Positions 5,668 to 34,441 of a DNA stretch of 34,441 nt are shown here, piece by piece. Source of the DNA: Clostridiaceae bacterium (GTDB lineage: Bacteria; Bacillota; Clostridia; DSM-8532); contig JAAYNA010000094.1 of assembly GCA_012521105.1 (NCBI GenBank), forward strand, positions 1 through 34,441. Reading direction: 5' to 3'. Under the pieces are notes generated by a model, which worked only from the letters and a program-made list of their open reading frames with translations, did not search any database and had not been told where the DNA came from. The position numbers and the translations under genes are program-made. How positions within the stretch are numbered: the first letter of the stretch is position 1; every line of letters starts with the position of its first letter.

Positions 5668-7302
5668 ATGCCTATTACTGAATTTTTAGAGCGCAATGCC
5701 AGGCTTTATGGTAATGAAAAATGCCTGACCGAAATAAATATGGACCTTCAGGAAAGGGATAATGTTACCTGGCTTGATTATGAGCTTATAGAGAACAATC
5801 CTGCCGGTGAATACCGCAGAGACATGACGTGGCGTGTATTTGATGAAAAGGCTAACAGGCTTGCCAATTTATTAATAAAAAGAGGAATAAAAAAAGGAGA
5901 TAAGGTGGCCATCCTGTTAATGAATTGTCTTGAATGGCTCCCTATCTATTTCGGTATATTAAAAGCCGGTGCAATAGCGGTGCCATTAAATTTCAGGTAT
6001 ACAGCTGAGGAAATAAAATATTGTCTTAATTTATCAGATACTGTTGCATTAATTTTTGGTCCTGAATTTATTGGACGTATGGAAGCAATTTATCATGATA
6101 TACCGAACGTAAAAATGCTTTTTTATGCGGGGGAAAACAGGCCATCCTTCGCTGAAAGTTATGACAGGCTTACAGCTAATTGCCCGTCAGAAGCCCCGGG
6201 TGTGGAAATTACAGATGATGACGATGCTGTTATTTATTATTCTTCGGGTACAACAGGGTTTCCAAAAGCAATATTACATACGCACAGAAGCCTTATGTCG
6301 GCATGTTACACCGAGCAAAAACATCATGGCCAAACACGTGAAGATAATTTCCTTTGTATACCTCCGCTTTACCATACCGGCGCAAAAATGCACTGGTTTG
6401 GCAGCCTTATATCGGGAAGTAAGGCGGTGCTGCTTCGCGGTGTAAAGCCCGAATGGATCCTGAAAACTGTGTCTGAAGAGAAAATCACTATTGTGTGGCT
6501 TTTGGTTCCATGGGCTCAGGACATACTTGACGCCATTGAGCGGGGGGATGTAAACTTAAAGGATTACGACCTGTCTCATTGGCGGCTTATGCATATTGGT
6601 GCTCAGCCCGTACCACCCAGTTTAATTCATCGATGGAAGGAGCATTTTCCCAACCACCTTTATGACACAAACTACGGGCTTAGTGAATCAATTGGCCCGG
6701 GATGTGTGCATTTGGGTGTTGAAAATATACATAAAGTTGGTGCCATAGGAAAGCCTGGATACAATTGGGAAGTGAAAATAATTAATGAAGCCGGGCAACC
6801 GGTGCCTAAGGGTGAAATAGGTGAACTGGCTGTTAAAGGTCCCGGTGTTATGAAATGCTATTACAAGGATCAGAGAGCCACTGAGGCAGTTCTAAAAGAT
6901 GGCTGGCTATTAACCGGTGATATGGCGCGAATGGATGAAGATGGTTTCATTTACCTTGTTGACAGGAAAAAGGATGTTATTATTAGCGGTGGCGAAAATA
7001 TATACCCTGTTCAGGTTGAAGACTATTTACGTTCTCATGAAGGAATTAAGGATGTTGCGGTTATAGGGCTGCCCGATCGAAGGTTGGGAGAAATAGCAGC
7101 TGCGGTAATAGAAGCAAAGCCGGGCGTAACGCTAACCGAGAAGGATATAATAGAGTTTTGCCGGTCACTACCACGTTATAAACGCCCAAGAAAAATAATT
7201 TTTGACAAGGTTCCAAGAAATCCAACAGGTAAGATTGAAAAGCCACGGCTTAGAGAGAAGTATGGGGCAGCATGTTTAGTTGCTACCCAGACTCGAATGT
7301 AG
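5668..7302 (+). CDS. AMP-dependent acyl-CoA synthetase/ligase
   Basis: A 544-residue member of the ANL superfamily, full length. It activates a carboxylic acid as acyl-AMP and transfers it to CoA. Motifs: ATP-binding loop SSGTTGFPK (192-200), A5 motif YGLSES, GDMARMDEDGFIYLVDRKKD with the hinge Asp, ISGGENIYP, and the C-terminal catalytic Lys in NPTGKIEK (Lys522). The N-terminal layout (NRLANLLIKRGIKKGDKVAIL) is that of medium/long-chain or aromatic acyl-CoA ligases; the substrate cannot be fixed. Ribosome-binding site GGGAGGAT. The upstream region holds a Rex-like site and an inverted repeat. It is not in an operon, and a terminator follows. Confidence 0.88.
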   Translation: MPITEFLERNARLYGNEKCLTEINMDLQERDNVTWLDYELIENNPAGEYRRDMTWRVFDEKANRLANLLIKRGIKKGDKVAILLMNCLEWLPIYFGILKAGAIAVPLNFRYTAEEIKYCLNLSDTVALIFGPEFIGRMEAIYHDIPNVKMLFYAGENRPSFAESYDRLTANCPSEAPGVEITDDDDAVIYYSSGTTGFPKAILHTHRSLMSACYTEQKHHGQTREDNFLCIPPLYHTGAKMHWFGSLISGSKAVLLRGVKPEWILKTVSEEKITIVWLLVPWAQDILDAIERGDVNLKDYDLSHWRLMHIGAQPVPPSLIHRWKEHFPNHLYDTNYGLSESIGPGCVHLGVENIHKVGAIGKPGYNWEVKIINEAGQPVPKGEIGELAVKGPGVMKCYYKDQRATEAVLKDGWLLTGDMARMDEDGFIYLVDRKKDVIISGGENIYPVQVEDYLRSHEGIKDVAVIGLPDRRLGEIAAAVIEAKPGVTLTEKDIIEFCRSLPRYKRPRKIIFDKVPRNPTGKIEKPRLREKYGAACLVATQTRM

Positions 7303-7437: not shown

Positions 7438-8819
7438 ATTTTCAGATTATAAAGGCGCTTAAAAAGAGATATGCTTATGATAAATGAAACGACTTCAGCT
7501 ATTGGGAATGAATACCATACGTAAATCAGTCCGGCTTTACTAAGTACATATGCAACAGGAAGAATTATAACCAGTTGTCTTAGTGCTGATACAATCAAAC
7601 TGTATATACCGGCACCCAATGCCTGGAATAAAGTTGAAAACATAATTCCTAATGCAGCTCCCATGAAACACAGGCTGATTATACGGAGAGCCGGTATTCC
7701 AATTTCTATTAATTCATCGGAGGCATTAAAAATCATCAGGAGATTTTCAGGGAACAGCATAAGAACTGCAGTTCCAATTGCCATGATAATTGATGCAATA
7801 ATGCAGCCAAATTTTAGGGCGTCCAGCAGTCTCTTTTTATTTCTTGCTCCGAAATTATATCCCATAATGGGCATTACACCCTGGGTTAGCCCGAACACCG
7901 GCATAAACACGAAAGACTGAAGCTTGTAATAAACGCCCAGTACCGATACTGCGGCTTCTGAAAAAGTGGCCAGTATTGCGTTCAGAGAACCAACAAGCAG
8001 TGAGCCTATGGACTGCATTATTATGGATGGCAATCCTACAGTATATATTTCTTTTATTGTCCTGCCATTAAACCTAAAGCCTTTTAAAGAGATTTTTACA
8101 CTGTGTTTTTTTGTAACAACGACTATAATACTAAATATCAACGCAAAAATCTGACCAATCACCGTTGCTATAGCTGCACCTTTTACGCCAAGCTCAGGAA
8201 CCCCATATAGACCAAATATTAAAATCGGATCAAGTATAATGTTCGTAATAGCCCCCGTTAACTGAAAGAACATAGGGTAAATCATATTACCGGTAGCCTG
8301 CAGCGTTTTTTCCAAAACAATCTGAATGAAAACGCCAAAAGAGAAAATCATTACTATATAAACGTAGTCGCACCCCATACTTATAACAATAGGTTTATCA
8401 GAAAACATTTCAAAAAACGGTCTTGTCAGGAAAACGCCTAAAATTGCAAAAATGATCCAGCTGAAAAAGGCCAGAACTACACCATGGGTAGCGGCACTGC
8501 TGGCTTCGTCATACCTGCCTTCACCCAGCCTACGTGAAACCAGTGAGTTTACACCAACACCTGTTCCCACAGCAACTGCTATCATTAATGTTTGCAGTGG
8601 AAAAGCAAGTGATATGGCTGTAAGCGCTTCCATACCTATTTGTGATACATAAATGCTGTCTACTATGTTATACATGGATTGTATAAACATAGAAAACATT
8701 GCCGGCAACGACATTGAAAAAATCAGGCGTAAAACCGGAGTGGTACCCATCTTAACGGTTTTATCATAATGAGCATGATCAGCAGTATCAGAGTCTGTCA
8801 GTTTCTGAATATGTTCCAA
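7416..8819 (-). CDS. MATE family multidrug/cation exporter
   Basis: A 467-residue integral membrane protein with about 12 hydrophobic segments, in two halves of the MATE type (GMEALTAISLAFPLQTLMIAV near the N-terminus; FGLTQGVMPIMGYNFGA in the second half), most like the MepA/NorM-type Na+- or H+-coupled drug exporters. The start is TTG, supported by AGGAGG 8 nt upstream; no ATG nearby has such a site. The gene is transcribed alone from a promoter whose spacer is filled by a palindrome, and it has a structured leader of about 140 nt. Both suggest inducible expression, as is common for drug exporters. The exported compound is unknown. Confidence 0.88.
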   Translation of the reverse strand: MEHIQKLTDSDTADHAHYDKTVKMGTTPVLRLIFSMSLPAMFSMFIQSMYNIVDSIYVSQIGMEALTAISLAFPLQTLMIAVAVGTGVGVNSLVSRRLGEGRYDEASSAATHGVVLAFFSWIIFAILGVFLTRPFFEMFSDKPIVISMGCDYVYIVMIFSFGVFIQIVLEKTLQATGNMIYPMFFQLTGAITNIILDPILIFGLYGVPELGVKGAAIATVIGQIFALIFSIIVVVTKKHSVKISLKGFRFNGRTIKEIYTVGLPSIIMQSIGSLLVGSLNAILATFSEAAVSVLGVYYKLQSFVFMPVFGLTQGVMPIMGYNFGARNKKRLLDALKFGCIIASIIMAIGTAVLMLFPENLLMIFNASDELIEIGIPALRIISLCFMGAALGIMFSTLFQALGAGIYSLIVSALRQLVIILPVAYVLSKAGLIYVWYSFPIAEVVSFIISISLFKRLYNLKIKNLGCY

Positions 8820-8887
8820 ATGTAATTCCTCCTGTAAGTATATTTTTAAATGTCGGCATAAGAAAACTAATGATTTTCAGATGAGCA

Positions 8888-8948
8888 TATATTCTCTGCA
8901 ACAGCGGGCGAGCCTGAATCTTTCGCCTTGCTGAAAAGGTGTGCTGTT
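8888..8948 (-). ncRNA. Structured 5' leader of the MATE mRNA (candidate attenuator/riboswitch)
   Basis: On the minus strand AACAGC pairs with GCTGTT as an outer stem, enclosing GGCGA/TCGCC as an inner stem with an 11-nt loop. Within it, TTTTCAG could instead pair with CTGAAAA farther downstream (near 8880), which gives alternative folds. I do not recognise a known riboswitch class. A regulatory role is inference. Confidence 0.35.
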
Positions 8949-8968
8949 TTTATCATATACGGTTAATG

Positions 8969-8997
8969 AGTATAGCATAAACATATATGCTAATCAA
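8969..8997 (-). promoter_or_regulatory. MATE promoter with an operator in the spacer
   Basis: Minus strand TTGATT (8997-8992), 17-nt spacer, TATACT (8974-8969). The palindrome AGCATA-N6-TATGCT (8974-8991) fills the spacer, where a TetR- or MarR-type repressor would exclude RNA polymerase. Confidence 0.6.
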
Positions 8998-9132
8998 TAA
9001 CATTAACTCTCATGATAATACCCGCCCTGAAACATTTTGATAAAATATGCTATGGAGACATGGTGTATATGAAAACTTTCCTGTCAGATATGATATACTA
9101 AACTCTGAAAAAGAGAAATTGGGGGGATTATT

Positions 9133-10374
9133 ATGGCAGATAATAAGGTTATAGTTGTTGGTGGCGGAGCAGCGGGAATGATTGCAGCAATCTCGGCACA
9201 AAGGGCAGGAGCCAATGTTACAATACTTGAAAGAAATCCCCGGGTAGGCAAGAAAATACTTGCCACAGGTAATGGCCGCTGTAACTTTACCAATATTAAC
9301 ACTGATATAAATTGTTATAATGGAAATAACCCTGAATTTGTGCGAGGAGCATTGTCGGCTTTTACCGTTAACGATACCATCCGTTTTTTTGAGCGGTTGG
9401 GGATAGAGCATAAAGTTGAGGATATGGGAAAGGTTTTTCCAATGTCCGACCAGGCTTCCAGTATCCTGGATGTACTTTTATACGAGATAAATGACAAAAA
9501 AATTAATGTGGTTTGCAACTGCCATGTAACCGACATAGCGAAAAAAGGTAATAAATTTTCAGTCAGCGCTGAAAAAGGTGAAAATTACACTGCCAACAGT
9601 GTTATAATAGCAGCCGGCGGTAAAGCTATGCCGTCCACAGGCTCGGACGGAAATGGCTATGATTTGGCAAAAAAACTTGGGCACAGAATCACAAATATAT
9701 TCCCTGCACTGGTCCAGATTATGCTTGAAGGCTCGTTCTTTAAGCGCATAGAGGGGGTTAAGTTTGTTGGTACTGCCGAGATAATACACAATAATAAATC
9801 AGTTGCAAAAGACAGAGGGGATATCCTATTTGGGAATTATGGAGTATCGGGGCCACCAATACTGCAGATAAGCAGAAAAGCGGGGGAGCTTCATCAAGCC
9901 GGAAAAGAAGCGTATATAAAAATTACCATAATGGATATGCCTGAAGAAGGGCTTAGAAATATTTTAAACAGGCGGTTTGAAGAACTGCAAAGCAAACCTT
10001 TAGATTTCAGCTTTGTAGGGTTTATTAATAAAAGGCTTATCCCTGTTATATTGCTTGAGGCCGGAATAGAAAATATTAAAAAACTCGTTTCTGAACTGTC
10101 TGAAAAAGAAAAGGAAAATATAATAAGAATTTTAACCGACTGGAGAATGAAAATACGGGGGACAAAGAGTTGGCCAAGTGCACAGGTAACTGCCGGCGGG
10201 GTTGACACAAAAGATATTGATGAAAACTCAATGGAATCTAAATTAGTTAAAGGCCTGTTTTTTGCGGGTGAAATAATAGATATTGACGGCCAGTGCGGAG
10301 GGTTTAACCTTCAGTGGGCATGGTCGTCGGGGTATATTGCAGGTAAAAATGCAGCATTAAGGAGAATTTCATGA
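9133..10374 (+). CDS. HI0933-like (BaiN/RdsA family) NAD(P)/FAD-dependent oxidoreductase
   Basis: A 413-residue flavoprotein of the HI0933 family. The N-terminal dinucleotide-binding motif is VVGGGAAGMIAA with the family signature GKKILATGNGRCNFTN. The second half contains TAGGVDTKDID and the C-terminal FAD motif GLFFAGEIIDIDGQCGGFNLQWAWSSG (abbreviated here as GLFFAGE then GGFNLQWAW). Members include bile-acid-reducing BaiN; for most, the substrate is unknown. The ribosome-binding site is GGGGGGAT. The next gene overlaps by 4 nt (ATGA), so the two FAD proteins are translationally coupled and probably act together. Confidence 0.87.
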   Translation: MADNKVIVVGGGAAGMIAAISAQRAGANVTILERNPRVGKKILATGNGRCNFTNINTDINCYNGNNPEFVRGALSAFTVNDTIRFFERLGIEHKVEDMGKVFPMSDQASSILDVLLYEINDKKINVVCNCHVTDIAKKGNKFSVSAEKGENYTANSVIIAAGGKAMPSTGSDGNGYDLAKKLGHRITNIFPALVQIMLEGSFFKRIEGVKFVGTAEIIHNNKSVAKDRGDILFGNYGVSGPPILQISRKAGELHQAGKEAYIKITIMDMPEEGLRNILNRRFEELQSKPLDFSFVGFINKRLIPVILLEAGIENIKKLVSELSEKEKENIIRILTDWRMKIRGTKSWPSAQVTAGGVDTKDIDENSMESKLVKGLFFAGEIIDIDGQCGGFNLQWAWSSGYIAGKNAALRRIS

Positions 10375-11981
10375 TAAGGGTTTCAAATATAAAGATTAAA
10401 TTAAGTGAAATTGCCGATCCAAGGGATGAAATACAGGTTTTGAAGCAGAAGCTTTTGTTAAGGTTAAAAATTTCCGAAAAGGAACTGAAACATTTCAAAA
10501 TATCGAAAAAATCGGTTGATGCAAGGAAAAAAGATGATATCTTCCTGGTATACTCTGTGGATGCAGATGTCAATAATGAGTTAAGACTTCTTCGCAGAAG
10601 CGATACTAAAAATATAGTACCGGCTCCTGACATGGTATATAAAATGGTTCGGCATGGCAGCGAGAAGTTAACAGAACGTCCCGTTATTGTTGGTATGGGT
10701 CCGGCAGGGCTTTTTGCCGGGCTGACGCTTTCAAGGTATGGATACAGACCAATCCTTGTTGACAGAGGAGAGGATGTTGATTCAAGAGTTAAGAAAATCA
10801 ACAAATTCTGGAACGAAGGTGTCCTCGATACAGAAAGCAATGTTCAGTTTGGTGAAGGGGGCGCTGGTACTTTTTCCGACGGGAAACTTACCACTTTAAT
10901 TAATGACAAAAGGTGCGCTGTTGTATTGGAAGAGTTTGTAAAAGCAGGTGCCCCAAAAGAAATACTATATTATTACAGGCCTCATATTGGAACCGATCTG
11001 CTAAGAACCATCGTCAAAAATATAAGGCAGGAGATCATAGCGAATGGTGGGGAAGTCAGGTTCAAAACAAAAGTTACTGATATTATAGTGAAAGATGGAA
11101 ATATTCATGCATTAAAGCTGAATAATACCGAAACCCTTTACTGTAATATTGTTTTACTGGCATTGGGGCACAGTGCAAGGGATACCTATGAAATGCTTGA
11201 CAGGCATGGTGTTAAAATGAGCCCGAAATCTTTCTCTGTTGGTGTACGCATTGAACATCCGCAGAATTTAATTAACATAGCCCAGTACGGTGATGCTGCC
11301 GGGCATCCAATGCTGGGGGCAGCAGATTATAAGCTTTCATATCATTCAAAAAGAGGAAGATCGGCTTATACATTTTGTATGTGCCCGGGGGGATATGTTG
11401 TTGCAGCTGCTTCAGAATATAACAGTGTTGTGACAAACGGCATGAGCGAGTATAGAAGGGACGGCAGGAATGCAAATGCAGCACTGCTTGTAGGCGTTAC
11501 ACCATCAGATTTTATGAGCGATGACCCTCTTGCAGGGGTTGAATTTCAAAGAAAGTGGGAAAACCTTGCATTTAAACTGGGCGGTGAAAACTACATGGCT
11601 CCGGCCCAGCTTACCGAAGACTTCCTACATGACCGTAAAAGCACAGGTTTTGGCAGTGTCACTCCAACATATAAACCCGGTGTGGTGTTTTCCGGAATCA
11701 AAAACTGCCTGCCAGATTATGTTATTGAAACTATGAAGGAGGCCATTGTGTATTTTGATAGCAAACTTAAAGGTTTTGCACTGCCCGACAGCGTTTTAAC
11801 GGGTGTTGAAACCAGAAGTTCGTCTCCGTTAAGGATAAACAGGGACGAGAAATTTACAGCCAACATAGAAGGGTTATATCCTGTTGGTGAAGGGGCAGGC
11901 TATGCAGGAGGCATTATGTCATCTGCAGTTGACGGAATAAAAACCGCAGAGAAGGTAATAGAAAGGTATTCCCCTCTCTAA
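10371..11981 (+). CDS. FAD-dependent dehydrogenase, COG2509-like
   Basis: A 536-residue protein. The first ~95 residues form a small alpha/beta domain typical of this family. A FAD/NAD-binding motif (VIVGMGPAGLFAGLTLSRYG) follows, then NVQFGEGGAGTFSDGKL, and at the C-terminus EGLYPVGEGAGYAGGIMSSA, which closes the FAD fold. The family is widespread in Firmicutes and described only as uncharacterised FAD-dependent dehydrogenases. It overlaps the upstream HI0933-like gene by 4 nt. The substrate cannot be predicted. Confidence 0.85.
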   Translation: MIRVSNIKIKLSEIADPRDEIQVLKQKLLLRLKISEKELKHFKISKKSVDARKKDDIFLVYSVDADVNNELRLLRRSDTKNIVPAPDMVYKMVRHGSEKLTERPVIVGMGPAGLFAGLTLSRYGYRPILVDRGEDVDSRVKKINKFWNEGVLDTESNVQFGEGGAGTFSDGKLTTLINDKRCAVVLEEFVKAGAPKEILYYYRPHIGTDLLRTIVKNIRQEIIANGGEVRFKTKVTDIIVKDGNIHALKLNNTETLYCNIVLLALGHSARDTYEMLDRHGVKMSPKSFSVGVRIEHPQNLINIAQYGDAAGHPMLGAADYKLSYHSKRGRSAYTFCMCPGGYVVAAASEYNSVVTNGMSEYRRDGRNANAALLVGVTPSDFMSDDPLAGVEFQRKWENLAFKLGGENYMAPAQLTEDFLHDRKSTGFGSVTPTYKPGVVFSGIKNCLPDYVIETMKEAIVYFDSKLKGFALPDSVLTGVETRSSSPLRINRDEKFTANIEGLYPVGEGAGYAGGIMSSAVDGIKTAEKVIERYSPL

Positions 11982-12021
11982 GCGGTGCAGAAATTAGAAG
12001 TATACTTCGGGATGAAATGTT

Positions 12022-12936
12022 ATGATTGATGTATGCCTGTTAGGTACCGGAGGTGTAATGCCGCTTCCGGGCAGATGGCTGTCATCTGCGTTAATCAGAT
12101 ATAACGGAGGAATGATATTGATAGATTGCGGTGAAGGTACTCAAATTCCCATAAAAATAGCGGGTTGGGGCTTCAAAGCAATTGATGCCATTTTGTTTAC
12201 ACACTACCATGGTGATCATATTGCAGGATTGCCGGGGTTACTTCTTACCATAGGGAATGCAGGGCGTGTTGAACCGTTAACTTTAATGGGCCCACCTGGT
12301 ATAAGGAAAGTGGTAGAAGGTTTGACAGTTATAGCTCCTGAACTGCCTTATAAGCTTCAATTAATTGAGCTGCCGGATAAAGAGGAGGCTGAAACCCATT
12401 TAAATGGTTTGATAATTAAAAGTATCCCTGTGGATCATACCGTTACATGCCTTGGTTACTGTCTGATTCTTAAAAGGCAGGGCAAATTTGATATAGAACG
12501 GGCAAGCAAGCTGAACATTCCGGTTTGGTACTATAAACAATTGCAGAAAGGCTATGAGGTAAAAGTGGGCAGCCAGGTTATAAAACCCGATATGGTTCTT
12601 GGACCTGAAAGAAGAGGATTAAAAATCTGCTATTGTACAGATACGAGGCCAACTTATGAGCTTATTGATTTTGTCCGGGAAGCAGACCTTTTCATATGTG
12701 AAGGCATGTATGTCAATAATGAGGAAAAAGAAAAGGCGGTTAAGAAAAAACACATGACTTTTACAGAAGCTGCTGAAGTGGCAAGGAAGGCAAAGGTTAA
12801 AGCCATGTGGTTAACTCATTACAGCCCGTCTTTAACCGAACCTGGGAAATATATTAAAGAAGCGTCGGAGATTTTTCCGAACACCGAAGCTGGTACCGAT
12901 TTACTTATGAAGACATTAAAATTTACTCCTGAATGA
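12022..12936 (+). CDS. rnz: Ribonuclease Z (tRNA 3'-processing, metallo-beta-lactamase fold)
   Basis: A 304-residue protein, the normal length for short-form RNase Z, the endonuclease that removes 3' trailers from tRNA precursors. The zinc motif is HYHGDH (61-66, after FT). Further metal ligands appear in DHTVTCLGY, CYCTDTRP and LTHYSPS. A middle segment (KPDMVLGPERRG) precedes CTDTRP, as in this family. The start ATG follows a weak site (GGGATG), only 40 nt after the FAD gene, so it may be co-transcribed. The N-terminus GTGGVMPLPGRWLSS matches the clostridial form. Confidence 0.88.
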   Translation: MIDVCLLGTGGVMPLPGRWLSSALIRYNGGMILIDCGEGTQIPIKIAGWGFKAIDAILFTHYHGDHIAGLPGLLLTIGNAGRVEPLTLMGPPGIRKVVEGLTVIAPELPYKLQLIELPDKEEAETHLNGLIIKSIPVDHTVTCLGYCLILKRQGKFDIERASKLNIPVWYYKQLQKGYEVKVGSQVIKPDMVLGPERRGLKICYCTDTRPTYELIDFVREADLFICEGMYVNNEEKEKAVKKKHMTFTEAAEVARKAKVKAMWLTHYSPSLTEPGKYIKEASEIFPNTEAGTDLLMKTLKFTPE

Positions 12937-23881: not shown

Positions 23882-25540
23882 ATGGAAAAAAAAGTACTGA
23901 TTGTTGGAGGTGTAGCAGGAGGTGCTTCTGCTGCTACAAGGCTCAGAAGGCTGGATGAACATGCAGAGATAATAATATTTGAAAGAGATCAATATATTTC
24001 TTATGCCAATTGCGGACTGCCGTATTACATAGGGGAAGTAATAAAAGACAGAGACGACCTTATAGTTCAAACTGCAGAAGATATGAAAATACGGTTCAAT
24101 ATTGATGTACGAACAGAAAGTGAAGTTATGAACATAGCTCCCAAAGAGAAAAGGGTAACTGTAAAAAGTAAATCAAAAGGCGTTTATGAAGAAAATTATG
24201 ATTATCTTATTTTATCGCCGGGTGCAAAGGCGTTTAAGCCTGATATTCCTGGAATAAACAGTGATAAGGTTCTATGTTTAAGGAATATTCCCGATACAGA
24301 TGCAATTAAATCTCTAATAGACGAAAAGAACGCGAAAAGTGCAGTTGTTATAGGCGGAGGATTTATTGGCATTGAAATTGCTGAAAACCTTATACAAAGG
24401 GGAGTGGCTGTATCGCTTGTTGAACTTGCTCCCCATATACTTGCTCAATTTGACGAAGACATGGCAGTGATACTGGAAAATGAGCTGATCCGGAACGGTG
24501 TAAGCCTTGTATTAAATACCTCAGTTACAGCTATTGATGAAAAGGGAGATAAACTTGAGGTTTTATTATCATCCGGCCGAAAGATCAACACCGATTTTGT
24601 TATATCAGCAGCAGGTGTAATTCCTGATACAGATTTTATTAAGGACAGCGGAATTGAGCTTGGGCCAAGGGGACATATAATTGTAAACGAAAGAATGGAG
24701 ACAAATATAAAAGATATTTACGCCGTTGGTGATGCTGTTGAAGTGGTTGATTTCGTGAACGGTAAAAAAACAGCAATACCTTTGGCAGGTCCTGCGAATA
24801 AACAGGGCAGAATAGTGGCCGATAATATTGCAGGGTTATATTCAGTATATAAAGGAACTCAGGGTACCTCTATAATTAAAGTGTTTGAACTTACTGCTGC
24901 GTGCACAGGCAATAATGAAAAAACCTTAAAACGCTTTGATGTACCATATGAAACAATTTACGTTCATCCCATGTCCCATGCTACTTATTACCCCGGTGCA
25001 ACACCTATGACTTTAAAGCTGTTGTTTGATAAACGTGGGAAAATCTTAGGTGCTCAGGGAATAGGCTACGATGGGGTGGATAAAAGAATTGATATTATTG
25101 CTGCAGTAATACGGCTTAATGGAACGGTTAACGACCTGGCAGAGCTGGAACTTTCATATGCGCCTCCATATTCTTCTGCGAAAGACCCCGTTAACATGGC
25201 AGGATTTGTTGCGCAGAACTATTTGGCAGGGTTGTCGCATCTTATAACCTGGAGTGACCTGGAAAAACTTAACAAAGAAGATTACATCCTGGTTGATGTA
25301 AGAACTAAGTCAGAATACAAAAGAGGCCATATAGAAGGGGCTGTTAATATACCCTTGGATGATTTAAGAGGAAGGCTTACAGAACTTGATAAAGAAAAAA
25401 CAATTGTTGTATACTGCCGGGTTGGTGTACGCGGATACATTGCCGACAGAATACTAAGCCAAAACGGCTTTAAAGTATTAAACATAACTGGAGGATACGT
25501 ATCTGAACAGGCAATGCATAATATTAAAGAAAAAGGCTGA
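23882..25540 (+). CDS. CoA-disulfide-reductase-like flavoprotein with rhodanese domain
   Basis: A 552-residue fusion. The N-terminal ~440 residues form a pyridine nucleotide-disulfide oxidoreductase of the CoADR type, with FAD motif VGGVAGGASAATRLRR (8-23), the single active-site Cys44 in SYANCGLPYYIG, NAD(P) motif VIGGGFIGIEIAENL, the FAD-ribityl motif IYAVGDAVEV, and YAPPYSSAKDPVNMAG from the dimer partner. The C-terminal ~95 residues are a rhodanese domain with Cys512 in VVYCRVGVRG. Such CoADR-RHD enzymes reduce CoA disulfide, persulfides or polysulfides with NAD(P)H. The gene has no terminator of its own before the CRISPR-like repeat that follows at 25561. Confidence 0.9.
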   Translation: MEKKVLIVGGVAGGASAATRLRRLDEHAEIIIFERDQYISYANCGLPYYIGEVIKDRDDLIVQTAEDMKIRFNIDVRTESEVMNIAPKEKRVTVKSKSKGVYEENYDYLILSPGAKAFKPDIPGINSDKVLCLRNIPDTDAIKSLIDEKNAKSAVVIGGGFIGIEIAENLIQRGVAVSLVELAPHILAQFDEDMAVILENELIRNGVSLVLNTSVTAIDEKGDKLEVLLSSGRKINTDFVISAAGVIPDTDFIKDSGIELGPRGHIIVNERMETNIKDIYAVGDAVEVVDFVNGKKTAIPLAGPANKQGRIVADNIAGLYSVYKGTQGTSIIKVFELTAACTGNNEKTLKRFDVPYETIYVHPMSHATYYPGATPMTLKLLFDKRGKILGAQGIGYDGVDKRIDIIAAVIRLNGTVNDLAELELSYAPPYSSAKDPVNMAGFVAQNYLAGLSHLITWSDLEKLNKEDYILVDVRTKSEYKRGHIEGAVNIPLDDLRGRLTELDKEKTIVVYCRVGVRGYIADRILSQNGFKVLNITGGYVSEQAMHNIKEKG

Positions 25541-25560: not shown

Positions 25561-25678
25561 AGAATAATCTAATCATTAATGGAATGTAAAGATAATAGTT
25601 TTTTATAATCTGCAATTTTGAATCTCTCCAATATGGAAAGCAAATACATTATATTTAGTTGTATTTGCTTTTTTTTTA
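25561..25678 (+). ncRNA. CreR-like Cas-regulating guide RNA (degenerate repeat, guide, terminator)
   Basis: 25561-25591 is a degenerate copy of the array repeat at 34261. Twenty-two of 30 positions match, including AATCTAA and an unbroken AATGGAATGTAAA, with one inserted T. No second repeat follows. The next bases (from 25592, ATAATAGTTTT...) form a guide that matches the cas promoter region beside a CCA PAM. A 12-bp intrinsic terminator ends the unit. A weak promoter may lie at 25524-25552 (TTAAAG, then TAGAAT/ATATAT); read-through from the flavoprotein gene is the alternative source. This matches CreR RNAs, crRNA-like RNAs that direct type I-B effectors to repress cas genes. The function is inferred. 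Confidence 0.75.
25637..25678 (+). terminator. Intrinsic terminator of the CreR-like RNA / flavoprotein transcript
   Basis: Perfect 12-bp stem AAAGCAAATACA / TGTATTTGCTTT (25637-25648 with 25660-25671), 11-nt loop, then a long T-run. Confidence 0.85.
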
Positions 25679-25681
25679 TTT

Positions 25682-25708
25682 ATAGCTGGACATGATTTGT
25701 CCAGCTAT
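25682..25708. promoter_or_regulatory. 11-bp inverted repeat upstream of the cas promoter
   Basis: ATAGCTGGACA / TGTCCAGCTAT with a 5-nt loop, perfect, 37 bp upstream of the cas -35 box. No T-tract follows. It is either an operator for a protein regulator of cas genes or a second transcription barrier behind the terminator. Confidence 0.45.
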
Positions 25709-25745: not shown

Positions 25746-25774
25746 TTGACAAGACATTAAGGAATTTATATAAT
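25746..25774 (+). promoter_or_regulatory. Consensus promoter of the cas operon
   Basis: TTGACA (25746-25751), exactly 17 nt, TATAAT (25769-25774): a perfect sigma-A consensus, so the operon should be strongly expressed unless repressed. The start is expected near 25781. Confidence 0.85.
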
Positions 25775-25805
25775 AATGTCGAGCAGTATATAAAACTATT
25801 ATTGG
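25767..25805 (-). promoter_or_regulatory. Predicted CreR-guided Cascade target in the cas promoter
   Basis: On the minus strand CCA (25805-25803) is followed by ATAATAGTTTT (25802-25792), identical to the first 11 guide bases at 25592-25602. Guide position 12 mismatches, 13-16 match, and 18 matches. A protospacer of about 36 nt would reach 25767 and cover the -10 box and transcription start. Confidence 0.75.
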
Positions 25806-25832
25806 ACTTCACGAAAGGAGGTGAAAGAAAGA

Positions 25833-26546
25833 ATGAGATTAAAACTTAAATTCGAACTGAAAAAAAACGAAATTCCCAGTGACTACAGACCTTTTATTTT
25901 ATCTTTTATGAAGAATTCTGTATACCTCTATGACCAGAAATTATACCGGGATCTTTATGAAAGCGGTGCTATTCCCAAAAAATATACTTTTTCTGTTTGG
26001 CTGGATACACCCAGTTTTTATCCCAAGACTATAAAGCTGGGCAGTAATCGGATGGATGTCCAGTTTTCAACTGGTGATACAGCCCTTGGCATACATATGT
26101 ACAATGCTTTTTTGCAAATGAGAATGAAAGACTTCAGCATACCGCTTGACAACTCAATTCTGCTGAAAGAAATCCAGCTCGTACCTGAAAAAATCATTAC
26201 CGACAGAAAAATTCTTGCCCGGTTTATTTCGCCTCTTGTTGTTCGCTCTCATACAAAACACAGGGATTTTTATTACAGCATTGCCCATCCAGAGTTTAAT
26301 GAAGAACTGATGAGAATACTTCATTACCAGCTTGAAATTCTTAACGATATGCCGTTGTCCTTACTGGAAGACTTCTGCATAGAACCTGTTAAGCCGCAAA
26401 AGACAGTAGTGCAATTTTATGGACAGCACGTTGAAGCCACTTTGGGTACTTTTCGAATGGAAGGTAACCCCGTCTTACTGGATTATTTCTATAAGCAGGG
26501 ACTAGGCTCCAGGCGAAGTAGTGGCTTCGGAATGATATCTGTTTGA
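25833..26546 (+). CDS. cas6: Cas6 crRNA-processing endoribonuclease
   Basis: A 237-residue Cas6, first gene of the type I-B operon. It cuts the pre-crRNA within the repeat, leaving the 8-nt 5' handle (ATGTAAAT for this array). The C-terminus carries the Cas6 glycine-rich loop GLGSRRSSGFGMISV, and the N-terminus the ferredoxin-like strand LKLKFELKKNEIP. The start at ATG 25833 is chosen because AAAGGAGGTGA lies 8 nt upstream; an in-frame GTG at 25821 falls inside that site. The mRNA leader is overlapped by the predicted CreR target. Confidence 0.9.
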   Translation: MRLKLKFELKKNEIPSDYRPFILSFMKNSVYLYDQKLYRDLYESGAIPKKYTFSVWLDTPSFYPKTIKLGSNRMDVQFSTGDTALGIHMYNAFLQMRMKDFSIPLDNSILLKEIQLVPEKIITDRKILARFISPLVVRSHTKHRDFYYSIAHPEFNEELMRILHYQLEILNDMPLSLLEDFCIEPVKPQKTVVQFYGQHVEATLGTFRMEGNPVLLDYFYKQGLGSRRSSGFGMISV

Positions 26547-26562
26547 GAAGGAGGTGATATTT

Positions 26563-28251
26563 TTGACCGGTGAATATGTAACCATTACATTGAAAGATTT
26601 TTTGTTCAATTCAGGTATATGCGGATTTGTAAAGGTTCTTCAGTTGGAAGATTTTGATCTCGAAGAACAGGACGCGGGTAATACCATAAAGGTTCCGATA
26701 TCATTACTTGAGAACTTCCACGATAATTACATAAAAGCAATGCTGAATACTTTCCAGGATGAAACATTATATCAAAGTCTTATTAACCAGTATGAGCAAT
26801 TCGCCGGAAGTAAAGCTGAGAATATATCAGAAAAAGATTACGAGAACTATATTGATAAACTAATAAATAAGCTTAGTAGCGCAAGTTATAAATCCGGATA
26901 TCACATAATTTCAGAGAAAGGTGACAAATTTGATGTCCTCTCACGCGTAAAGGAGTTGAAAAAGGAAAAAGACATCATAAAATCGCTAGATATTTGCCAC
27001 GACTTAATTCAATACATGAAAAAGCATTGTGAAACCCTTTGCATGAAAGATATAATCTACACAAAGATAAATATGTTTTGGCAGGGAATTGCTTTTTTAA
27101 ACAGCTCAAATTCAAAAAAGGATATAAAAGAGTGCTATTATAAAGATTTTGTCAAACCTGCCTTGGAGTATCTGGATAAAAAAAGAAAAGGCACAATGCA
27201 ATGCATTCAGTGTGGAAATCCAATAAATACATCTATAGGCAGGGGTATGTCATGGCTTAACGATGTAGGTATTGACATGGCCAGAAAACGGTCTCATTAC
27301 TGGAATTTCAATCCTGATACCTACATATGTCCTATCTGCGCATTGGTATATTCCTGCGTTCCACTGGGGTTTACCATAATTGGTCAAGAAGCAATCTTCA
27401 TTAACAATAATGATAGTATTCGTAGTCTGGTTGCAGTAAAAGATATTTTTGAACGAGGCGGGGATAAATACAATACAGTGAACCAACCTTACTATAAAGT
27501 GCTGTATTCTTTTGTTGATGATGCAGCTCAGGAACAAACAAAAGAAATACAAAACATACAGATTATCAGGAGAGTTTCACTTGACAGGGATAGCGGGAGG
27601 TATGTTTTCAACACTCTTTCCAAACCGCTTTTGGAAATACTTCATGCATGCAGACATAATTTCAGGCATTTGTTGAATTGGTCGTTTAAAAAAGACAAAG
27701 ATACTTATATTAATGTTTACCAGGAAGTTGCGGATAATTTCTTTTCAGGCAAAAATCAGTATCCACTGGTACATGCAATTTTGCAAAAAGTTTTCAGCGA
27801 GAATGTTAAAGCCCTATATATTAAGGACATTCTGGAAATTCAAAGACTCAGAATGAGAAGATTTAATTCAGATGAAGGAGGTAGTGAGGCAATGTATATA
27901 AGTCAAAAGGAATTCAATGCTGCCTATAATGAGGGTAAAAAAATTCGAGAACAGCATGTCAGGAACATTGCTGAATTGAATGACAAAAACACAAAAGTCA
28001 ATGAAAGTTTACGTTCCTTTGTTTATCCTCTGTTGCTCTCATTAAAAACCAAAGATAAAGCCAGGTTCAACGACACAATGTTCCGCTTCTATGTGGGCAG
28101 AAATGAATCAATTCCCAGGATTCTCATTGATATGCAGCAAAACGACGAGAAATTTCAGATGCTGGGTTATACATTTATAGCAGGGCTCTATGGTGAAAGC
28201 CTGGATTCTAAAAAAAGCACTGAAAATACAATAAATGAGGAGGTTAAATAA
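26563..28251 (+). CDS. cas8b1: Cas8b1 (Cst1-type) large subunit of Cascade
   Basis: A 562-residue protein at the large-subunit position, between cas6 and cas7. It has two CxxC pairs, Cys214/Cys217 (CIQC) and Cys256/Cys259 (CPIC), the zinc-finger hallmark of the Cst1/CXXC-CXXC Cas8b family. Cas8 recognises the PAM and anchors the 5' handle end of the crRNA complex. I chose TTG 26563 as start because GGAGGTGA ends just upstream at normal spacing; a GTG at 26554 belongs to the ribosome-binding site. It begins 16 nt after the cas6 stop and ends just before cas7. Sequence is otherwise poorly conserved, as is normal for Cas8. Confidence 0.87.
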   Translation: MTGEYVTITLKDFLFNSGICGFVKVLQLEDFDLEEQDAGNTIKVPISLLENFHDNYIKAMLNTFQDETLYQSLINQYEQFAGSKAENISEKDYENYIDKLINKLSSASYKSGYHIISEKGDKFDVLSRVKELKKEKDIIKSLDICHDLIQYMKKHCETLCMKDIIYTKINMFWQGIAFLNSSNSKKDIKECYYKDFVKPALEYLDKKRKGTMQCIQCGNPINTSIGRGMSWLNDVGIDMARKRSHYWNFNPDTYICPICALVYSCVPLGFTIIGQEAIFINNNDSIRSLVAVKDIFERGGDKYNTVNQPYYKVLYSFVDDAAQEQTKEIQNIQIIRRVSLDRDSGRYVFNTLSKPLLEILHACRHNFRHLLNWSFKKDKDTYINVYQEVADNFFSGKNQYPLVHAILQKVFSENVKALYIKDILEIQRLRMRRFNSDEGGSEAMYISQKEFNAAYNEGKKIREQHVRNIAELNDKNTKVNESLRSFVYPLLLSLKTKDKARFNDTMFRFYVGRNESIPRILIDMQQNDEKFQMLGYTFIAGLYGESLDSKKSTENTINEEVK

Positions 28252-28252
28252 T

Positions 28253-29880
<1,628 letters not shown>

Positions 29881-29897
29881 AGGAGAGGTGATAGTAT

Positions 29898-32243
29898 ATG
29901 GATAATATGTTCCTGGCTAAATCATATCCCAGCCCGATAACCATTTCGCAGCATACCGAAGAAATGCTGAAGCTTGTAAAGGAATTAAAGCAAGCTTTAC
30001 CTGAAATCCTTACTGGAAAGGAATGGAACATACTGGAACTTGCAATAATTCATCACGACATTGGAAAGATAAATACTACATTTCAGAATAAGATTTATGC
30101 GAAATTAAAGAAAAGTCTTTCATTGCCTGATGTATTTGGTGGTGCATATGAAATACCACACGGGTATTTAAGCACATGCATGATCGATTATGAAAGGGTT
30201 CAAAGGGAATATGGTTTCTCGCAGGATGAAATCATACTCCTTGCCATGTCCATATACTATCACCATCACAGGAAAATTAAATATGACGACAATCAGTTAA
30301 AAAGAACATTGGAGGATAATGTAAAACCATATATCACTAAATTTAAAAAAGATTTTGCTTTTGGATTTATTACTGATGCTCCTGACTTTGAACATGTAAA
30401 TACAAAGGTAAATTTAGACTGTTTGACCAAAAATAAGAAATTATATACTGCATACATAAAAATAAAAGGACTATTGAACCGTATTGATTACACAGCCAGT
30501 GCCGGAATAACCGCAATTGAGAAGAAACCATTTGACAGTGACAACGAATCTGTAGATCAGAAAGTGATTAAAAAATATACAACCGGCGGCAATTCACTGG
30601 CAGATGTACAGAAATATTTATACGAAAACAGCGATAAAAATATTATCCTTACAGCTTCTACAGGAATTGGAAAGACTGAAGGGGCTCTGCTTTGGTTAAG
30701 AGCAAATAAAGGGTTTTATACTTTACCATTAAGAGTAACCATTAACGCGATATATAACCGGATAAAGGGAAGCTCCGGGGAAAATTCACTGAATTATTCA
30801 CCGGTTGCTTTACTGCATTCAGATTCTATAAGCGTATATCTTAAAGAAACAGAATCTTATGAAGCGTCAATATATATGGACAGCGAGGCAAGGCTGTTTA
30901 CCGCGCCATTGACTATTACTACGGTAGATCAGTTATTCCGCTTTGTATTCCGATACCATGGATATGAAATGATACCGGCTACGCTAATGTATTCAAAGGT
31001 AGTTATTGATGAAATTCAGATGTATTCACCGTCCATAATAGCCTGTATCTTATATGGGCTGAGAGAGATTCACAAACTGGGTGGAAAGTTTCTTATCATG
31101 ACAGCAACCATGCCAAAAATATTTATTAAAATTCTTGAGGAAAAGTTAAAAATGAAAGCAAACGTGGCATATGAACTGCCGGAGCCTTTTTTAAGGGACA
31201 GCAACAGAACAGATAAATCCAAGCACTTCGTAAAATTGCATGAATCAGAATTTGATATTCAGCAGATTGAAAATGACAGTTTTAATCATAAGGTTCTGGT
31301 GATAGCAAATACTGTGGCAAGGGCACAGGAGATTTATAATAAACTCAATGTAAAGAATAAATGGCTGTTACACAGTTTATTTACAAGAGAGCACAGAAGT
31401 ATTCTTGAAAACAAGATTCTGAATTTTTCAAAAGACAAAAATGCAAAGGGAGTTTGGGTGGCTACACAGATTGTTGAAGCAAGCCTTGATATTGACTTCG
31501 ATATTTTACATACTGAAATGTGTACTATCGATAGCCTTTTTCAGCGTATGGGAAGAATATTAAGAGGGAAAAACAGTTTCCTTATAGAAAAAACTCCTAA
31601 TATTCATATATATACTGAGGATGTATCAGGGTATGGCCGCGTAATAAATAAAGAGATATATGAATTCTCTTTGAATGCTTTGAAAAAATTTTTAAACTCG
31701 GATAACCAACAGACACTGACAGAAGAGGATAAGCAGAATATAATTCAGAATGTTTATGATCCTGAACTAAATCCCCAAATATTAGAGTCAGACTATTATA
31801 AAGAGATTTTAAATTATATTAGTTATTTACAAAGCATTCAGGAAAAACCCTATCAATTAGAAAAAAATGAAACCAAATTCCGTGATATTTTAAGCGTTTT
31901 AGTTATACCCAGATCCATATATGATGATTTGGACGTTAAAGGCATACTACAGCAGATGGAAGAACAGTTTGAAAAATCCGATTCAGCCGAGAAAAGACAA
32001 ATACTTGACAATATTTTAAAATATACCATTTCGGTTTCTTACTTTTATGACGATGAACTGTTATTCAACATTGATAATGCCTTGTTGAAAGAAGCCGGGA
32101 AACGGGCATTTGCAGAAACAGGCATAAAAATATGTGACTGTCCTTATGATTTTAATGAAGAAGAGGAAAGAGGTTTGGGTCTCCAAAGGAAAATAACCAG
32201 AGGAGAAAGAGACAGAATACAGACACGAAATTCCATGCTATAA
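29898..32243 (+). CDS. cas3: Cas3 nuclease-helicase
   Basis: A 781-residue protein with both modules. The N-terminal HD nuclease has HHDIGK (His52-His53-Asp54) and further His residues (YYHHHRK). The SF2 helicase has Walker A STGIGKT (Lys259), DEIQ box (371-374), LIMTATMP (motif III), and motif VI FQRMGRILRG. It is recruited by Cascade after R-loop formation and degrades the non-target strand. All key residues are present, so interference should be functional. Ribosome-binding site AGGAGAGGTGA. A guide with short complementarity, as proposed for the CreR-like RNA, would be expected to bind without triggering Cas3. Confidence 0.95.
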   Translation: MDNMFLAKSYPSPITISQHTEEMLKLVKELKQALPEILTGKEWNILELAIIHHDIGKINTTFQNKIYAKLKKSLSLPDVFGGAYEIPHGYLSTCMIDYERVQREYGFSQDEIILLAMSIYYHHHRKIKYDDNQLKRTLEDNVKPYITKFKKDFAFGFITDAPDFEHVNTKVNLDCLTKNKKLYTAYIKIKGLLNRIDYTASAGITAIEKKPFDSDNESVDQKVIKKYTTGGNSLADVQKYLYENSDKNIILTASTGIGKTEGALLWLRANKGFYTLPLRVTINAIYNRIKGSSGENSLNYSPVALLHSDSISVYLKETESYEASIYMDSEARLFTAPLTITTVDQLFRFVFRYHGYEMIPATLMYSKVVIDEIQMYSPSIIACILYGLREIHKLGGKFLIMTATMPKIFIKILEEKLKMKANVAYELPEPFLRDSNRTDKSKHFVKLHESEFDIQQIENDSFNHKVLVIANTVARAQEIYNKLNVKNKWLLHSLFTREHRSILENKILNFSKDKNAKGVWVATQIVEASLDIDFDILHTEMCTIDSLFQRMGRILRGKNSFLIEKTPNIHIYTEDVSGYGRVINKEIYEFSLNALKKFLNSDNQQTLTEEDKQNIIQNVYDPELNPQILESDYYKEILNYISYLQSIQEKPYQLEKNETKFRDILSVLVIPRSIYDDLDVKGILQQMEEQFEKSDSAEKRQILDNILKYTISVSYFYDDELLFNIDNALLKEAGKRAFAETGIKICDCPYDFNEEEERGLGLQRKITRGERDRIQTRNSML

Positions 32244-32246
32244 AAA

Positions 32247-32260
32247 TCCTTAATTAAGGA
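32247..32260. repeat. 14-bp palindrome between cas3 and cas4
   Basis: TCCTTAATTAAGGA is a perfect palindrome that includes the AAGGA ribosome-binding site of cas4. As RNA it could form a weak hairpin masking that site. Confidence 0.4.
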
Positions 32261-32269
32261 ATGAGGATA

Positions 32270-32758
32270 ATGAAGATTACAGGAGTTATGGTAGAGTACT
32301 ATTTTGTTTGCAAAAAGAAATTATGGTATTTTACAAATCAGATTCAAATGGAGAATGAGCACGAAAATGTATTGATAGGTAGAATGATAGATGAAAATTC
32401 TTATGCACAAGAAAGAAAAAATATTCTTATTGACGGAACCATAAATATTGATTTTATACGAAAAAACAAACAGATTCACGAAGTTAAAAAGTCAAAAAGT
32501 ATTGAAGAGGCGACTATCTGGCAAGTTAAGTATTATTTATATTACCTCAAAAAGCTTGGATTGGACGGAGTCACGGGCGTAATCGATTATCCACTTTTGC
32601 GACAGAATCTTGTTGTGGAATTAGATGAAAGTGATGAAGAAAAGATTGAAGAGATAATCCGAGATATTGAAAGTATTGTTACTACGCCTTCACCTCCTAC
32701 TTCAAAAAAAATGAGGATATGCAGTAAATGTGCTTATTATGAGCTATGTTTTATTTAG
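32270..32758 (+). CDS. cas4: Cas4 exonuclease (spacer PAM selection)
   Basis: A 162-residue Cas4 with the four iron-sulfur cysteines: Cys14 (YYFVCKKKLWYF) and Cys151, Cys154, Cys160 (CSKCAYYELC). The RecB-like core shows IHEVKKSKS and QVKYYLYYL. Cas4 trims prespacers and ensures that they carry a PAM before integration by Cas1-Cas2. I prefer ATG 32270 (MKITGVM, the usual Cas4 start) with AAGGA 9 nt upstream; ATG 32261 abuts that site. Confidence 0.93.
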   Translation: MKITGVMVEYYFVCKKKLWYFTNQIQMENEHENVLIGRMIDENSYAQERKNILIDGTINIDFIRKNKQIHEVKKSKSIEEATIWQVKYYLYYLKKLGLDGVTGVIDYPLLRQNLVVELDESDEEKIEEIIRDIESIVTTPSPPTSKKMRICSKCAYYELCFI

Positions 32759-32801
32759 GCTACACCTGCTGAAGTATTGGCTTTTAAAGGAGGAATTACT
32801 T

Positions 32802-33794
32802 TTGAAACGAACCTATTACATATTTAACAATGGTGAGTTGAAAAGAAAGGATAACACAATCGAGTTTTATCTTGAAGATGGAGGGAGAAGAACAATTCCC
32901 ATTGAACAGGTAAGGGACATATATTGTTTTGGACAGATAAATATAAATTCTGCATTGATCAGTTTTTTAGCATCCCGCCATATTGCTTTGCATTGGTTTA
33001 ATTATTACGGCTATTATTCAGGTACGTTTTATCCAAGGGAGTATCTTGTATCAGGAAAACTATTGGTTAAGCAAGTTGAACATTATACTAATCCTGATAA
33101 ACGCATTATATTGGCAAAAGCATTTGTTGATGGAGCTTCAGCAAATATTTATCGCAATTTAAGATACTATAAAAACAGAGGTAAGGACCTTTCAGATGTA
33201 ATGGATGAAATAGATTATTTTAGAAATCAAATAAATGTGGCTGATAAGGTAGAATCTCTGATGGGATTAGAGGGTAACATAAGGAAGGTTTACTATTCTG
33301 CCTGGAACGAAATTATAAATCAGGATATTCAGTTTGAGAAACGGGTAAAAAGACCACCGGATAATATGATCAACTCTCTAATATCTTTTCTAAACACCAT
33401 GCTTTACACAAAGACGCTGAGCGAAATTTATAATACACAGTTAAATCCTACCATAAGTTATTTGCATGAACCGGGAACCAGTAGATTTTCGCTTAGTCTT
33501 GATATATCAGAAATATTCAAGCCATTAATTGTTGACAGGTTGATTTTCTCGCTTCTCAATAAAAATCAAATAAATGAGTACAGCTTCCACAAAGAGACAG
33601 AATTTTTACAGCTTAAGGAATCAGCTATTAAAACAATCATTGCTGAACTGGATCTTCGTTTAAAACAGACAATAGGGCATAGAGAGTTAAAACGGTCTGT
33701 TTCGTATTTAAGGCTTATTAGACTTGAAGCATATAAACTTGTGAAACATCTGCTGGGAGAAAAAATGTATGAGCCATTTAAGATCTGGTGGTGA
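32802..33794 (+). CDS. cas1: Cas1 integrase (type I-B)
   Basis: A 330-residue Cas1, the catalytic subunit of the spacer integrase. Metal-binding residues are Glu157 (GLEG), His222 (YLHEPG) and Asp234/Glu237 (LDISEIFKP). The N-terminal beta domain starts KRTYYIFNNGELKRKDNTI. The start is TTG 32802, supported by AAAGGAGG 7-8 nt upstream and the family N-terminus; upstream in-frame ATGs overlap the cas4 coding end and lack a site. Confidence 0.95.
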   Translation: MKRTYYIFNNGELKRKDNTIEFYLEDGGRRTIPIEQVRDIYCFGQININSALISFLASRHIALHWFNYYGYYSGTFYPREYLVSGKLLVKQVEHYTNPDKRIILAKAFVDGASANIYRNLRYYKNRGKDLSDVMDEIDYFRNQINVADKVESLMGLEGNIRKVYYSAWNEIINQDIQFEKRVKRPPDNMINSLISFLNTMLYTKTLSEIYNTQLNPTISYLHEPGTSRFSLSLDISEIFKPLIVDRLIFSLLNKNQINEYSFHKETEFLQLKESAIKTIIAELDLRLKQTIGHRELKRSVSYLRLIRLEAYKLVKHLLGEKMYEPFKIWW

Positions 33795-33802
33795 TAAAAT
33801 AG

Positions 33803-34081
33803 ATGTATATTATACTTGTATACGATATTGTGATGGACGAAGCGGGTCCTAAAGTTTTAAGAAAAGTTTTCAAGGAATGTAAAAAGTACCTTGTCCACAT
33901 TCAAAACTCAGTATTTGAAGGAGAATTGTCGGACGCTCAGCTTTTCAAACTGGAAATGACATTAAAAAAGTTTTTAAGAAAAGACAGGGATTCATTGATT
34001 GTATTTAAAACCAGAAATGAAAAATGGCTTGATAAAGAATTTTGGGGCAAAGAAGACGATGCTACTTCAAACTTCATTTAG
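33803..34081 (+). CDS. cas2: Cas2
   Basis: A 92-residue Cas2 with the N-terminal ferredoxin strand MYIILVYDIV (conserved Asp8) and HIQNSVFEGEL. It forms the central dimer of the Cas1-Cas2 integration complex. It begins 8 nt after the cas1 stop and is the last gene before the array leader. Confidence 0.94.
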   Translation: MYIILVYDIVMDEAGPKVLRKVFKECKKYLVHIQNSVFEGELSDAQLFKLEMTLKKFLRKDRDSLIVFKTRNEKWLDKEFWGKEDDATSNFI

Positions 34082-34260: not shown

Positions 34261-34441
34261 GTTGAAATCTAACCAGAATGGAATGTAAATGATATAAAAG
34301 CATGGCAGCCGACAAATGCATTAGAAAGTTGAAATCTAACCAGAATGGAATGTAAATGTTTTTGAAACCTATCTTTCAAACTCTCGGGAAGCCGTTGAAA
34401 TCTAACCAGAATGGAATGTAAATCTATGAAGGAGTATGTAA
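34261..34441 (+). CRISPR. CRISPR array, repeat family B (leader-proximal end, cut by window end)
   Basis: Three identical 30-nt repeats at 34261-34290, 34328-34357 and 34394-34423 (start GTTGAAATCTAACC, end GGAATGTAAAT). Two complete spacers of 37 and 36 nt, and 18 nt of a third, are present. Leader position and the cas2 neighbour show plus-strand transcription. Cas6 cleavage would leave ATGTAAAT as the 5' handle. The repeat is the intact parent of the degenerate copy at 25561-25591. Confidence 0.97.

Follow-up and report, generated by a model that had tools for sequence, protein, structure and literature searches.

The window analysed here, the whole 34,441-nt contig JAAYNA010000094.1 of a Clostridiaceae bacterium (GCA_012521105.1), carries a full type I-B cas set, in which cas8b1 corresponds to Cst1 and cas7 to Cst2, together with a canonical CRISPR array (Table 1). 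The start of cas6 is likely to be the ATG at 25833 rather than the GTG at 25821 at which the mechanical ORF begins, because the ATG follows an AGGAGG motif; the GTG overlaps this motif, and the ATG aligns with cas6 of relatives. At the other end of the window, positions 1-88 hold the terminal part of another CRISPR array, unrelated to the first (GTTTAGAGTCTACCTATAAGGAATTGAAAC, a 35-nt spacer, and a final copy diverging after GTTTAGAGTCTACCTATAAGGAA).

Table 1. Features of the cas locus and of the CRISPR-like element upstream of cas6 (positions in the window)
Feature	Position	Strand	Remarks
Psi-repeat 1 (degenerate CRISPR repeat)	25562-25591	+	Kept in G001, G003 and L032
24-nt guide (psi-spacer) of predicted crRNA-like RNA	25592-25615	+	Psi-repeats on both sides
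Psi-repeat 2	25616-25645	+	3′ end doubles as 5′ terminator arm
Intrinsic terminator	25637-25680	+	Perfect 12-bp inverted repeat AAAGCAAATACA/TGTATTTGCTTT and T tract; fold computed
cas operon promoter TTGACA-17-TATAAT	25746-25774	+	12/12 consensus match
Guide target in cas leader	25779-25802	-	Paired bases 25787-25802; homologous targets in G001, G003 and L032
CCA PAM	25803-25805	-	Read from sequence
cas6	25821-26546	+	TIGR01877
cas8b1-cas7-cas5-cas3-cas4-cas1-cas2, type I-B	26554-34081	+	NCBIfam matches
Canonical CRISPR array, 30-nt repeat GTTGAAATCTAACCAGAATGGAATGTAAAT	34261-34423	+	Truncated by contig end

Between a CoA-disulfide reductase-type gene (stop codon at 25540) and the cas promoter sits a mini-CRISPR, that is, a single guide (ATAATAGTTTTTTATAATCTGCAA) enclosed by two degenerate repeats. 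Psi-repeat 1 is identical to the array repeat at 18 of 30 positions overall and at 13 of the 14 positions of its 3′ end, with an 8-nt handle reading ATGTAAAG, compared with ATGTAAAT in the array repeat; among relatives the handle is conserved as ATGTAAA[GTA]. The guide can be delimited to 24 nt because the second degenerate repeat bounds it downstream. Guides of relatives measure 25, 25 and 31 nt, and the window guide contrasts with the 34-39-nt spacers found in the real arrays of relatives. Psi-repeat 2 shares 21 of 30 positions with the array repeat, which makes it the top non-array match within the window, and the terminator-type hairpin with its run of Ts is present likewise in G001 and L032. 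An Rfam search gave no match above threshold. The interval between the terminator and the cas promoter also contains a perfect 11-bp inverted repeat (ATAGCTGGACA-TGATT-TGTCCAGCTAT, 25682-25708), which has no T tract and is conserved only partly in L032.

Positions 25805-25779 of the minus strand read CCA ATAATAGTTTTATATACTGCTCGA. Exactly as described in the first-pass annotation, guide bases 1-11 are identical to the minus strand directly 3′ of CCA, base 12 is mismatched, bases 13-16 match, and the similarity then decays, so that pairing spans only about 15 of the 24 guide nucleotides. The same annotation had placed binding over the -10 box and the start site, which does not hold for the pairing itself, located just past the -10 box (25769-25774) at roughly +6 to +22 relative to the expected start site; the bulk of Cascade, beyond the pairing, might nonetheless cover the -10 box. 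Among the 3,092 CCN sites of the window, the one in the cas leader is the only one flanking a run of at least 11 guide bases, and exact CCNATAATNGTTTTNTAT occurs once in the 3.38-Mb genome, in the cas leader. The bare guide 11-mer occurs 20 times in the genome, compared with 16 times for a reversed control. Dinucleotide shuffles of the 191-bp promoter fragment produced the 11-mer in 61 of 20,000 cases and the 11-mer beside CC in none of the 20,000, and the initial estimate of about 1 in 10,000 for a chance match is of the right order when the PAM is counted.

No protospacer was found for the genus (the array spacers of G003 had no phage match, and none of them matched the genus genomes outside arrays), so that the PAM had to be read from arrays of more distant loci, which belong to the same repeat family as that of the window. 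Array spacers matched Dulem virus 35 with a CCT PAM (L065) and a Microviridae genome with CCA (L083); those of L102 hit Enterococcus phage phiFL3A beside CCT and, beside TCT, a diverged relative. The L065 locus itself bears an element of the type discussed below (CreR), flanked by CCA, and the matched targets of relatives are all CCN, in agreement with the CC-type PAM initially proposed. Reported I-B PAMs are CCN in Clostridium, CCT in Ureibacillus and CCA in Moorella (PMC8482600), and YCN/CCW in C. difficile (PMC8406132). The arrays of L084, L069 and L101 were unusable for this purpose, as they gave Clostridioides phage hits only, which resembled repeat-to-array similarity. In L084 (Bacillus sp. 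FJAT-42315, about 6400-7090), the array is located upstream of the cas genes and identical spacers recur in several blocks.

Four genomes were compared within the genus, namely the window, G001 (locus L031, same contig as LFSH01000012.1), G003 and L032 (JAAYTO010000073.1), the last being presumably a congener because its Cas7 is 87% identical. All four contain the psi-repeat, guide, psi-repeat arrangement, together with a target beside CC in the leader of the cas operon. Covariation of guide and target in relatives had been set beforehand as a test, and the outcome speaks in favour of the pairing. That is, the window and G003 carry one extra base before TAATA in guide and target alike, and the variable base, which then falls at guide position 7, co-changes (guide:target G:G in the window, segments ATAATAG/ATAATAG; A:A in G003, segments ATAATAA/ATAATAA). 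In G001 (TAATAG/TAATAA) and L032 (TAATAG/TAATAT), the differences are at position 6, where the variable base disagrees freely (G:A and G:T, respectively), and position 12 is the sole further mismatch within guide bases 1-15. If pairing by Cascade is under selection, changes of just this kind are expected, namely a shift of register made in guide and target alike and a substitution compensated in the partner. The guide-target match is maintained by selection in relatives. No guide-target pair was found at the congener cas locus L020 or at L019, the second I-B locus of G003 (8500-12800; G003:C1 at about 2.07 Mb), and no psi-repeat or guide was present upstream at the latter. L019 possesses cas7 and its own array, and of its cas6 there remains a 132-aa ORF, with similarity confined to the two ends of the gene.

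A Cas7 search of this group returned 80 loci from Clostridia, Bacilli and others, and no relative of Cas7 among viral contigs. Adding the window and G003 gave 82 loci, in which the stretch 2.15-4.5 kb before cas7 was searched for solitary repeat-like handles. Twenty-one solitary degenerate handles were detected. For 14 of them, the guide showed a CC-flanked run at least 12 long in the region upstream of its own cas genes, mismatches at multiples of six being tolerated, compared with 5 of 420 swapped pairs (Fisher p 1e-17, relatedness ignored). Scoring runs in this way is biased towards mismatches at positions 6, 12 and 18; the sites were therefore selected again by CC and bases 1-5 alone. In the 15 pairs then kept by total matches, positions 6 to 15 were matched 8, 15, 15, 14, 15, 12, 5, 15, 15 and 14 times, respectively, and position 18 three times. 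Positions 6 and 12 were thus matched in 13/30 cases against 115/120 for positions 7-11 and 13-15, or in 9/22 against 86/88 when one locus per lineage was taken; the p values take no account of the shared ancestry that remains. This Cascade-typical 6-nt periodicity, in which mismatches cluster at positions 6, 12 and 18, extends to relatives the every-sixth-base rule that had been invoked for the window alone. The element recurs in the three congeners and in about a dozen more distant cas loci, flanked by CCN each time, and behind most guides there are traces of psi-repeat 2, at a distance mostly below normal spacer length. No cas-leader guide-target pair was found for the solitary psi-repeats of L050, L071, L075, L102 and L104, four of which lie upstream of cas genes at L071 1912, L075 7088, L102 7094 and L104 6173. 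These target-less copies may be chance occurrences, decayed elements, or guides for other genes in the manner of CreA, and, together with L020 and L019, the five show that the element is dispensable.

In the window and its genus, the leader of the cas mRNA is complementary to the guide at a site shortly before AGGAGG, as would be expected of an ordinary antisense sRNA that pairs there (25787-25802), next to the ribosome-binding site, and blocks translation without Cascade. This explanation is nevertheless very unlikely. Among the 16 matched loci the target is on the minus strand in 8 and on the plus strand in 8, with the mini-CRISPR oriented either way, and in the 8 loci with an opposite-strand target the guide has the sequence of the mRNA sense strand rather than its complement; half of the guides therefore cannot pair with the cas mRNA, which argues for DNA binding. 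Moreover, nothing about an RNA duplex would call for a CC PAM, for mismatches at 6, 12 and 18 or for conservation of a handle of the Cas6 type. Even less probable is a CreA-type antitoxin guide, the true target of which would be a small toxin gene (CreT), with the cas match being secondary. The anatomy is the same as that of CreA of the type I-B CreTA system, which has two divergent psi-repeats and pairs at bases 1-5 and 7-11 beside a PAM (PMC8501985). However, the transcript that CreA represses in haloarchaea is a toxin RNA and the PAM is TTC (PMC8501985), whereas the window guide is directed at the cas leader with a CCN PAM and no toxin gene is seen between the terminator and the cas promoter, where there are only chance ORFs of 25-26 aa. 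Furthermore, the window contains no other CC-flanked match and the rest of the genome no exact copy of the pattern, and the cas leader itself is targeted in every congener having the element. Least likely of all is a chance similarity of A/T-rich sequences or a decayed repeat left by array remodelling: the region is 76% A+T and the 11-mer is repeated in the genome, but no shuffle gave it with the PAM, the match is kept and covaries in relatives, and swapped pairs seldom match.

With a probability of about 90%, the element is a CreR, that is, a degenerate CRISPR pared down to a single short guide through which Cascade would autorepress the cas operon; it is classed as such because its target is the cas leader. 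CreRs, or cas-regulating RNAs, were reportedly introduced by Liu et al. 2023, Cell Host Microbe 31:1481. The kind is thus already known since 2023, and the present element is a well-supported further member. Repeat-like sequences flank a spacer-like guide adjoining the cas operon, the guide has partial PAM-proximal complementarity to the cas promoter region (the transcribed leader), and beside the target lies CCA, the PAM of the host system according to evidence from the repeat family, beyond this genus. The completeness of the I-B operon, Cas6 and Cascade genes included, is a point in favour of a CreR, and the resemblance of psi-repeat 1 to the array repeat, good only in its last half, is a point against. 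A comparable case is tracr-L of type II-A systems, where Cas9 is used with a tracrRNA-derived single guide. There, too, a CRISPR effector with a short guide represses its own cas promoter, as predicted here, but the parts are unrelated to the window element. Autorepression of SpyCas9 is mentioned in PMC13131331. According to that paper and two others, CreRs are reported for types I-B, I-E and V-A (PMC13131331, PMC12948488, PMC12737573) and share with the window a mini-CRISPR beside the cas genes, a crRNA-like RNA whose complementarity to the cas promoter is limited, and autorepression, which is a prediction in our case. The window differs in that its terminator shares one arm with psi-repeat 2; in addition, the distance from the stop codon of the CoA-disulfide reductase gene to psi-repeat 1 is 7-21 nt in three congeners.

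Judging from the sequence, the CRISPR complex very probably uses the guide to turn down its own cas genes, and we infer transcription, processing, binding, repression and release along the following lines. Cas6 would process the transcript at psi-repeat 1 into a crRNA-like RNA consisting of the 8-nt handle and the guide, which would be loaded into the I-B Cascade. Cascade would then recognize CCA as PAM together with the seed (25787-25805) and form a short R-loop just past the cas promoter, blocking cas transcription without recruiting Cas3. The operon would thereby repress itself when free Cascade is abundant, and repression would be released by crRNAs or anti-CRISPRs that occupy or destroy Cascade. 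The suggestion made at the outset that short pairing avoids Cas3 cleavage is plausible by analogy, as a 24-nt guide fits two type I-B studies in which guides of up to 24-26 nt repress rather than cleave (PMC10989794, PMC10551041). What counts against repression is that Cascade binding via short seeds is often transcriptionally silent in E. coli (PMC5904413). RNA-guided cas autorepression would be extended to clostridial and bacillar type I-B systems, by evolutionary evidence that goes beyond a single match. The guide-target pairs amount to a natural mutagenesis, in which positions 1-5, 7-11 and 13-15 are kept while 6 and 12 drift, and this pattern points to the minimum of pairing needed, under selection, for repression by Cascade. 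The pairs provide, moreover, a sequence rule for locating CreRs, and PAMs, in genomes without mapped spacers, and calls for caution in that over-expression of crRNAs in such hosts may change cas levels.

As to the source of the guide RNA, psi-repeat 1 begins 7, 13 and 21 nt past the upstream stop codon in three genus genomes, and no separate guide-RNA promoter is evident in three of the four congeners. Such a gap leaves no room for a promoter outside the upstream gene, and the guide RNA may therefore be a 3′-UTR product in most of the genus. It is possible, if rather doubtful, that it is specifically the 3′ UTR of the CoA-disulfide reductase/rhodanese gene, with the psi-repeat 2 hairpin as terminator; if so, the level of cas autorepression would be tied to the expression of a thiol-redox gene. 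A TTGA[TC]A-18-TATACT sequence at 25386-25415, inside the upstream gene, was found in all three genomes; it was not retained as an established promoter, its third-position conservation (8/12) being not above the best elsewhere in the gene. In L032, the end of the upstream gene is different and a TTGACA-18-TACCAT promoter-like site is present.
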